Below are positions 20,066 to 22,258 of a stretch of DNA of 64,000 bases, one piece after another (within the stretch, counting starts at the first letter, position 1; each line of letters starts with the position of its first letter). Under the pieces are notes generated by a model. That model was given only the letters and a program-made list of their open reading frames with translations. It was not told where the DNA came from and made no database searches. The DNA lies in assembly GCA_011322625.1 (NCBI GenBank), contig DRMH01000012.1, positions 1-64,000 on the forward strand, written 5' to 3'. The stretch is from Thermosulfurimonas dismutans (GTDB lineage: Bacteria > Desulfobacterota > Thermodesulfobacteria > Thermodesulfobacteriales > Thermodesulfobacteriaceae). A program made the translations under genes and the position numbers.

Positions 20066-20473
20066 ATGGCTGAGGAACGCAAGATTCAGGTGGACGAGAT
20101 GGGGTTGGTTTTCGGGAAGACCATGATCATCTTTACGGTGCTGGGCGTACTTATGATGGTCATTCCGGCCATCCTCTATTTTCTGGGGATCCGGCCCTAT
20201 ATTCCTCTGGCCGAGGTCAGTAAATACTGGACCGGTTCGGCGGCGGAGTTCTGGCGGCAGGTGAAGGGGTTTGAGGTGCACGGGTACGGGTGGATCTTCA
20301 AGAATCTGGGCTACATGGACACCCTAAGCATGCTGGGGGTGCTCCTTCTTATGATCACCCCGCTTATCAGCATGTTGGCCGCTGTCTTTAAGGCTCCCAG
20401 CCTCACCTACCGCATTCTTCTTTTGGTGGGCGCGGCGGAATTCATCATCTCCCTTCTCTTTAAGACCAAATAA
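20066..20473 (+). CDS. Small multi-TM membrane protein in the TSUP operon (DUF1634-like guess)
   Basis: Three hydrophobic segments; 2-nt gap from TSUP gene. Confidence 0.7.
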   Translation: MAEERKIQVDEMGLVFGKTMIIFTVLGVLMMVIPAILYFLGIRPYIPLAEVSKYWTGSAAEFWRQVKGFEVHGYGWIFKNLGYMDTLSMLGVLLLMITPLISMLAAVFKAPSLTYRILLLVGAAEFIISLLFKTK

Positions 20474-20489: not shown

Positions 20490-20519
20490 TTGTTTAGGCC
20501 TCCCTCCCTGTGCTATCAT
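20490..20519 (+). promoter_or_regulatory. Putative clc promoter: TTGTTT-18-TATCAT with extended -10 (TGCTATCAT) in the terminator loop
   Basis: TTGTTT 20490-20495; TGC-TATCAT 20511-20519. Confidence 0.4.
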
Positions 20520-20536
20520 AGGCAGGGAGGTTTTTT
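20503..20536 (+). terminator. Rho-independent terminator: CCTCCCTG/CAGGGAGG stem then T6
   Basis: Arms 20503-20510 and 20523-20530, T20531-20536. Confidence 0.85.
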
Positions 20537-22258
20537 ATTCGGCGGCGTTTTGATGAGCACTTAATAACCGCTCTGCTGGCCATCCTGATCGGCCTCATCG
20601 GAGGCTGGGGGGCCATTGCCTTCCGGTTTCTGATCAAATTCTTTCAGGAATTTTTCTATCGCCATTCCCAGGACTTCATCTATTTCTACCGGGAGGTGCC
20701 TCTCTGGGAGAAACTCCTCTTTCCGGCCCTGGCCGGTCTGGTGGTGGGGCCCATCATTCATTTCTGGGCCCGGGAGGTCAAGGGCCACGGGGTGCCGGAG
20801 ATCATGGAGGCCCTGGTGGTGCGGGGAGGACGTATCCGGGCCCGTCTTACGGTTATTCAGATGCTGGTCTCGGCTATCTGTATCGGTTCCGGAAGCTCGG
20901 TGGGGCGTGAAGGGCCTATCGTGATGATCGGTTCCTCGGCCGGCTCCATGGTAGGGCAACTCCTGCGGGTTCCCCAGGAACGTCTGCGGACTTTTGTGGG
21001 ATGCGGGGCCGCAGCCGGAATCGCCGCCACCTTCAACGCCCCCATCGCCGGGGTGCTTTTCGCCGTGGAGATCCTGCTTTCGGATTTCCGTCTGGAACGC
21101 TTCAGCCCCATCGTGCTTTCCTCGGTTACCGCCACCACGGTGGCCCGTAAATATCTGGGGGATTTCCCGGCCCTCAAGGCCCCTTCTTATTCCCTGGTGA
21201 GTCTTCACGAATATTCCTTCTATCTTCTCCTGGGGGTGATAGCCGGCTTAATCGGGGTGCTCTTCATCGAGGTCCTTTACCGTTCGGAGGACCTCTTCGC
21301 CCGTCTTCCCCTTCCGGAGTATCTGCACCCCTTTATCGGAGGAATCATTATGGGCGGTTTTCTGGTGGGGGTGCCCTACGTTTTCGGGGTGGGCTACGGT
21401 ACGGTCAACCAGGCCCTCTTGGGGCAGCTACCGGCCAAATTGCTCTTTGCTTTGATTTTTCTGAAGATCCTGGCTACCTCCATAGTCCTTGGGGCCGGGC
21501 ACTCCGGGGGAGTATTTGCCCCCTCCCTTTATATCGGGGCCATGACCGGAGGGTTCGTGGGCTCGGTGGCCCATGCCCTGTTTCCCTCCCTTACCGCCTC
21601 TCCCGGGGCCTACGCCCTGGTGGGGATGGGAGCCGTGGTGGCTGCCACCACCCACGGACCCATTACCGCCATCCTGATCATTTTTGAGCTCACCGGGGAC
21701 TATAGCATCATCCTCCCCCTCATGCTCTCCTGCATTGTCTCCACCTTCATTTCCACCTATCTCAAGAGGGGATCCATCTATACGGTCAAGCTCGAGCGTC
21801 GGGGGCTTTCCCTGCGGCGGGGATGGGAGGAGACCCTGCTTAAGAGCGCCAGGGTAAAGGAGATCATGCACCGGGATTTTCCCTCCGTTCCGGAGGATTT
21901 ACCCCGGGAGAAGATCCTGAGCGTATTCGAAAGGGCCCCCCATTCCTACATCCTGGTGCTGGATTCCCGGGGGGAGCTCTCGGGCCTCATCTCCTTTCAC
22001 GATCTGCGACGGGTGCTCTTTTCGGAGAAACCCTTTACCGCCCGGGATATCGCCACCCGAAAGGTGGTTACCGTAACCCCGGAGGATGATCTCTTTACCG
22101 CCCTTTCGCGCATGGCCCGCCTGGGGGTTTCTCAATTGCCGGTGGTGGCCACGGAGGGGTCCCGGCGGGTGGTGGGGATGATCTCGCTTAAGGACATTAT
22201 GGCCTTTCAGGAGAGGGAACTGGCCAAACGGTATCTTCCCGGGGTCAGGGAGACATGA
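20537..22258 (+). CDS. ClC-family chloride channel/antiporter with C-terminal CBS pair; probable non-canonical ATT start (track lists it from internal GTG 20696)
   Basis: In-frame upstream translation (I)RRRFDEHLITALLAILIGLIGGWGAIAFRFLIKFFQ supplies the first ClC helix; GHGVPE, GREGPIV, FAVEILL motifs; CBS domains; SD AGGGAGG 6 nt before ATT. Confidence 0.85.
   Translation: MRRRFDEHLITALLAILIGLIGGWGAIAFRFLIKFFQEFFYRHSQDFIYFYREVPLWEKLLFPALAGLVVGPIIHFWAREVKGHGVPEIMEALVVRGGRIRARLTVIQMLVSAICIGSGSSVGREGPIVMIGSSAGSMVGQLLRVPQERLRTFVGCGAAAGIAATFNAPIAGVLFAVEILLSDFRLERFSPIVLSSVTATTVARKYLGDFPALKAPSYSLVSLHEYSFYLLLGVIAGLIGVLFIEVLYRSEDLFARLPLPEYLHPFIGGIIMGGFLVGVPYVFGVGYGTVNQALLGQLPAKLLFALIFLKILATSIVLGAGHSGGVFAPSLYIGAMTGGFVGSVAHALFPSLTASPGAYALVGMGAVVAATTHGPITAILIIFELTGDYSIILPLMLSCIVSTFISTYLKRGSIYTVKLERRGLSLRRGWEETLLKSARVKEIMHRDFPSVPEDLPREKILSVFERAPHSYILVLDSRGELSGLISFHDLRRVLFSEKPFTARDIATRKVVTVTPEDDLFTALSRMARLGVSQLPVVATEGSRRVVGMISLKDIMAFQERELAKRYLPGVRET

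Follow-up and report, generated by a model that had tools for sequence, protein, structure and literature searches.

Initiation of translation at AUU behind a strong Shine-Dalgarno (SD) sequence is known from infC and pcnB of E. coli, and the transposase of Tn10/IS10 is controlled by fold-back inhibition of read-through RNA. In the late genes and homing endonuclease genes of phage T4 and its kin (e, soc, I-TevI, segB, Aeh1 mobE), a hairpin covers the ribosome binding site (RBS) on early read-through RNA, and in the T4 late genes and I-TevI a late internal promoter leaves out the 5′ part of that hairpin (PMC2988022). The AUU start of S. aureus cvfC1 supports about 10% of the level of an AUG reporter in poor medium (PMC13009471).

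We set these systems beside a ClC chloride channel/antiporter gene in a 64,000-nt stretch of Thermosulfurimonas dismutans DNA (the window), where all features named in a first-pass annotation were located at the positions it had given, its description being nearly exact. The predicted protein matches Voltage_CLC (PF00654, E 1.2e-101) and CBS (PF00571, E 8e-26) in Pfam. The upstream operon includes genes for a TauE/SafE (TSUP) transporter and for a small protein that matches no Pfam family, the latter gene ending with TAA 20471-20473; TrkA and TrkH are encoded downstream on the other strand (Table 1). Orthologs from a whole-genome search came from four members of the same genus as the window genome (G000), namely G002 (99% amino acid identity; L004/L055), G004 (83%; L001/L056), and G005 and G003 (72%), and from G007 of another genus (77-78%). 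The DNA of the sister assembly G002 is 93% identical to the window in this region. A contig labelled Archaeoglobales archaeon (L003) also encodes a ClC, 70% identical to that of the window, and is likely to be mis-binned bacterial DNA or the product of transfer.

Table 1. Features around the 5′ end of the ClC gene (window coordinates)
Feature	Position	Strand	Remarks
Last gene of upstream TSUP operon	20066..20473	+	135-aa protein, no Pfam match
TTGTTT, weak -35-like hexamer	20490..20495	+	3/6 to TTGACA; identical in G002, no equivalent in G004
Intrinsic terminator of TSUP operon	20499..20536	+	Stem + T6; arms identical in G002
Extended -10 TGC-TATCAT in terminator loop	20511..20519	+	TG 20511-12 + C + TATCAT 20514-20519 (5/6)
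SD sequence GGGAGG, 3′ arm of terminator	20525..20530	+	Predicted transcription start site (TSS) 20525-20527 puts SD at mRNA 5′ end
ClC chloride channel/antiporter, C-terminal CBS domains	20537..22258	+	573 aa from ATT
ATT, proposed start codon	20537..20539	+	Conserved in G000, G002, G004
53 codons 5′ of first canonical start GTG 20696	20537..20695	+	Protein-level constraint

The explanation that we favor, and hold to be reasonably likely as a whole, combines a promoter of the gene's own, a leader that opens with the SD, an AUU start, the embedding of the SD in a terminator and possible insulation. Under this explanation, the extended -10 element would drive ClC from its own start site, the transcript would have a leader of about 10-12 nt beginning with GGGAGG, and AUU 20537 would be the first codon translated. 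Promoter and SD would lie within the TSUP terminator in this species and its sister, the loop holding the -10 and the 3′ arm forming the SD. Most TSUP transcripts would stop in the T6 run, while in rare read-through RNAs, which would contain both arms, the SD would be paired within the hairpin and ClC poorly translated. The terminator may thereby also insulate ClC, repression of read-through RNA being the least certain step.

Terminator, probable promoter and Shine-Dalgarno sequence

The TSUP operon had been proposed to end in a Rho-independent terminator, and its parts were confirmed: a 5′ arm, CCTCCCTG (20503-20510), a loop (20511-20522), a 3′ arm, CAGGGAGG (20523-20530), and six T residues (20531-20536). 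A GC-rich 8-pair stem leading directly into T6 is the mark of an intrinsic terminator, and no other of the 10 stem-plus-T5 matches on both strands had as many G-C pairs (8). The repeat CCTCCCTCCCTG permits two registers, the alternative one beginning at 20499; a 111-nt fold gave a fuller structure of 10+6 pairs, and the SD is buried in both registers. Depending on register, the hairpin has a predicted energy of -16 to -23 kcal/mol at 37°C and of -7 to -8.5 kcal/mol at 74°C, the growth optimum of T. dismutans. Shuffling gave a z-score of only -1.74 for the 111-nt stretch as a whole, so that the regional fold is not extreme. A simple terminator scan missed the hairpin because its loop limit was 8 nt. 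Rfam searches of L054 and L056 at gathering thresholds returned no match, nor did a search for plasmid origins. The terminator reading of the hairpin is supported.

A similar structure occurs at a DHH-like junction elsewhere in the genus. In L110:1501-1547 (G000:C30), and also in L107, L108, L115 and L123, a conserved CCTCCCT...AGGGAGG-C-T7 hairpin extends over the 3′ end of the preceding gene, with the ATG of the following gene a few nt away; five members of the genus share this arrangement. The gene that follows encodes 348-349 aa (family assigned by eye), and the three copies of the hairpin that were searched had no Rfam match.

The loop of the TSUP terminator holds the extended -10, and the spacer between TTGTTT and the -10 is 18 bp, as first described. 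The window has about 0.1 matches per kb to TGN followed by a hexamer with 5/6 or more of TATAAT; the -10 of G002 and G004 scores lower, at 4/6. Upstream of the gene only 21 of 60 bases match between the window and G004, and the DNA is otherwise unalignable. TGCTAT nevertheless stands exactly 26 nt before ATT in G000, G002 and G004, at a shuffle probability of 0.0005, which speaks for an extended -10 promoter with a short leader. We consider it probable that ClC has such a promoter, with the activity and the TSS predicted from sequence. A TSS about 7 nt beyond the -10 would place the 5′ end at 20525-20527; a start near 20526 had been suggested at first, and the comparison of the three genomes supports it.

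Within the SD, GGAGGT can pair with ACCTCC of 16S rRNA, whose tail TGGATCACCTCCTTT (CCTCC) occurs in both G000 and G002. The spacing to ATT is 6 nt in the window, and the calculated energies are -11.8 (G000), -11.6 (G002) and -11.9 kcal/mol (G004), a strength conserved among the three; -10 kcal/mol is reached at about 5% of random positions. The strong, well-spaced SD expected of an AUU-initiated gene is thus present, as had been claimed for the window.

Read-through RNA and the overlap of terminator and SD

The first-pass annotation had further proposed that the terminator acts as a translational off-switch on read-through RNA. For G000, folding at 74°C put the cost of opening the SD at 7.3 kcal/mol in read-through RNA vs 1.5 kcal/mol in the short RNA; for G002 the values were 8.3 vs 1.4 kcal/mol, and for G004 3.8 vs 4.0, with no difference. 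An SD buried in the long RNA and freer in the short one, as in the T4 genes, is therefore predicted in G000 and G002, and the arrangement is absent from G004. A lock of this kind would be physically plausible in two genomes and is lacking in the third. The ATT, the SD and the -10 offset are common to the three ATT-bearing genomes, whereas hairpin and SD are fused in G000 and G002 alone; the terminator of G004 stands apart, about 100 bp upstream, after the same operon end.

The strongest rival reading departs from our favored explanation in the last step only. It keeps the ATT start and the gene's own promoter but takes the overlap with the terminator for mere compaction, read-through being too rare for burial of the SD to matter, and we put its probability somewhat short of even. 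ATT, SD and -10 occur in G004 without the hairpin, and since the off-switch is absent there and terminator and SD lie apart, the overlap seems to reflect compaction in this lineage and not a conserved switch. Terminators are also packed against the next gene elsewhere in the genus, as at the DHH-like junction in five genomes, which speaks for an origin of the overlap by compaction. Against this reading, folding predicts clear sequestration of the SD, and the hairpin arms differ between G000 and G002 at 0 of 16 bases, compared with 7 of 63 intergenic bases. A terminator alone would also be conserved, however, as would the SD, so the unchanged arms do not single out a lock. A read-through lock with a biological effect is a reasonable proposal, specific to this lineage, but we regard it as unlikely. 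It is slightly less likely still that a single element of about 40 bp would unite terminator, promoter, RBS and a read-through-specific lock, with ClC made only from its own transcript.

Start codon of the ClC gene

The ClC frame is closed upstream by an in-frame TAG at 20519-20521 and, as originally noted, contains no ATG, GTG or TTG before GTG 20696 (codon 54). The same is true between the TAG and codon 54 of G002, a separate assembly, so that in both genomes no canonical start precedes the constrained region. Between the window and G002, all 9 differences in codons 1-53 are synonymous and fall at third positions (binomial p 5e-5); between the window and G004, 27 of 36 fall at third positions, with 5/4/27 at codon positions 1/2/3 (p 4e-7). 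From this pattern, the region before GTG 20696 is translated.

ATT 20537 is the sole near-start codon from -5 to 54 that is unchanged in the three genomes and has a strong SD. G002 repeats the layout of the window (TAG GCA GGG AGG GTT TTT ATT CGG), and G004 reads TTATTTGGGGAGGGGCCC ATT CGG. In G004, an in-frame TTG nine codons upstream of ATT is preceded by AGGG and is a possible start for that genome, which makes it the weak spot of the case for ATT. ATT is confined to these three genomes. The relatives that lack it start slightly upstream, at ATG in G005 and G003 (5-6 codons before the first conserved arginine) and at GTG in G007, indicating that the start position drifts within this family. 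The proposal that translation starts at ATT 20537 withstood this comparison, and we consider it very probable; the predicted N-terminus is (f)Met-RRRFDEHLITALLAILIG.

If translation began downstream of ATT 20537, at GTG 20696 or elsewhere, the protein would lack the first ClC helix. GTG 20696 is the first canonical in-frame start, and ATT 20615 (codon 27; ATT, ATT and ATA in the three genomes) is preceded by SD-like GGAGG, which at -9.5 kcal/mol is weaker; the codon lies inside the first helix. The silent third-position differences in codons 1-53 make initiation at GTG 20696 very unlikely, however, and this codon lacks an SD (+2.4) and is replaced by GTT in G004, so it was rejected. The orthologs contain the first helix, which, as remarked at the outset, a start at GTG 20696 would delete. 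Downstream initiation in general is accordingly very improbable.

Even less probable is entry into the ClC frame by -1 frameshifting or transcript slippage from an upstream frame with TTG 20490. T6A (20531-20537) reads as the classical slippery heptamer U UUU UUA in the ClC register, and no stop codon interrupts the upstream frame there. That frame, however, has no nearby ATG or GTG, and TTG 20490 has no recognizable SD in front of it. The possibility was discarded because the run is broken in G002 (G-T5-A) and missing in G004 (GGGGCCC); the heptamer is probably just the T-run of the terminator. Least probable of all is a sequencing or assembly error that removed an ATG or GTG from the window genome, for although metagenome-assembled genomes carry errors, the same ATT and in-frame TAG recur in G002, and ATT in G004 too.

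Comparison with described systems

Initiation at ATT had been likened to infC. The comparison is valid for other bacteria. The infC frames of the six genus members (L089-L094), however, all open with SD-like purines and then TTG GGN AGC, a conserved non-AUG beginning. In this genus infC thus most likely starts at TTG, and it was dismissed as a local precedent for ATT. Like infC, pcnB and cvfC1, the ClC gene has a strong SD before AUU that is conserved in relatives; it differs from them in encoding a ClC transporter and in that its start codon is deduced from sequence. Beyond infC and pcnB, it provides a further AUU start with comparative support, from a thermophilic bacterium. Gene callers limited to ATG, GTG and TTG would begin ClC at GTG 20696 and lose the first helix.

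As in Tn10/IS10, RNA from outside promoters would bury the RBS, but ClC is not a mobile element and its hairpin is a terminator. The predicted layout resembles the T4 system, in which the SD hairpin forms only in long upstream transcripts and a promoter makes a short transcript without the 5′ part. Here the gene is a chromosomal transporter gene with an AUU start, the hairpin doubles as the intrinsic terminator of the TSUP operon, and the lock is predicted. The locus is a cellular candidate for a read-through lock of the phage T4 type, merged with a terminator.
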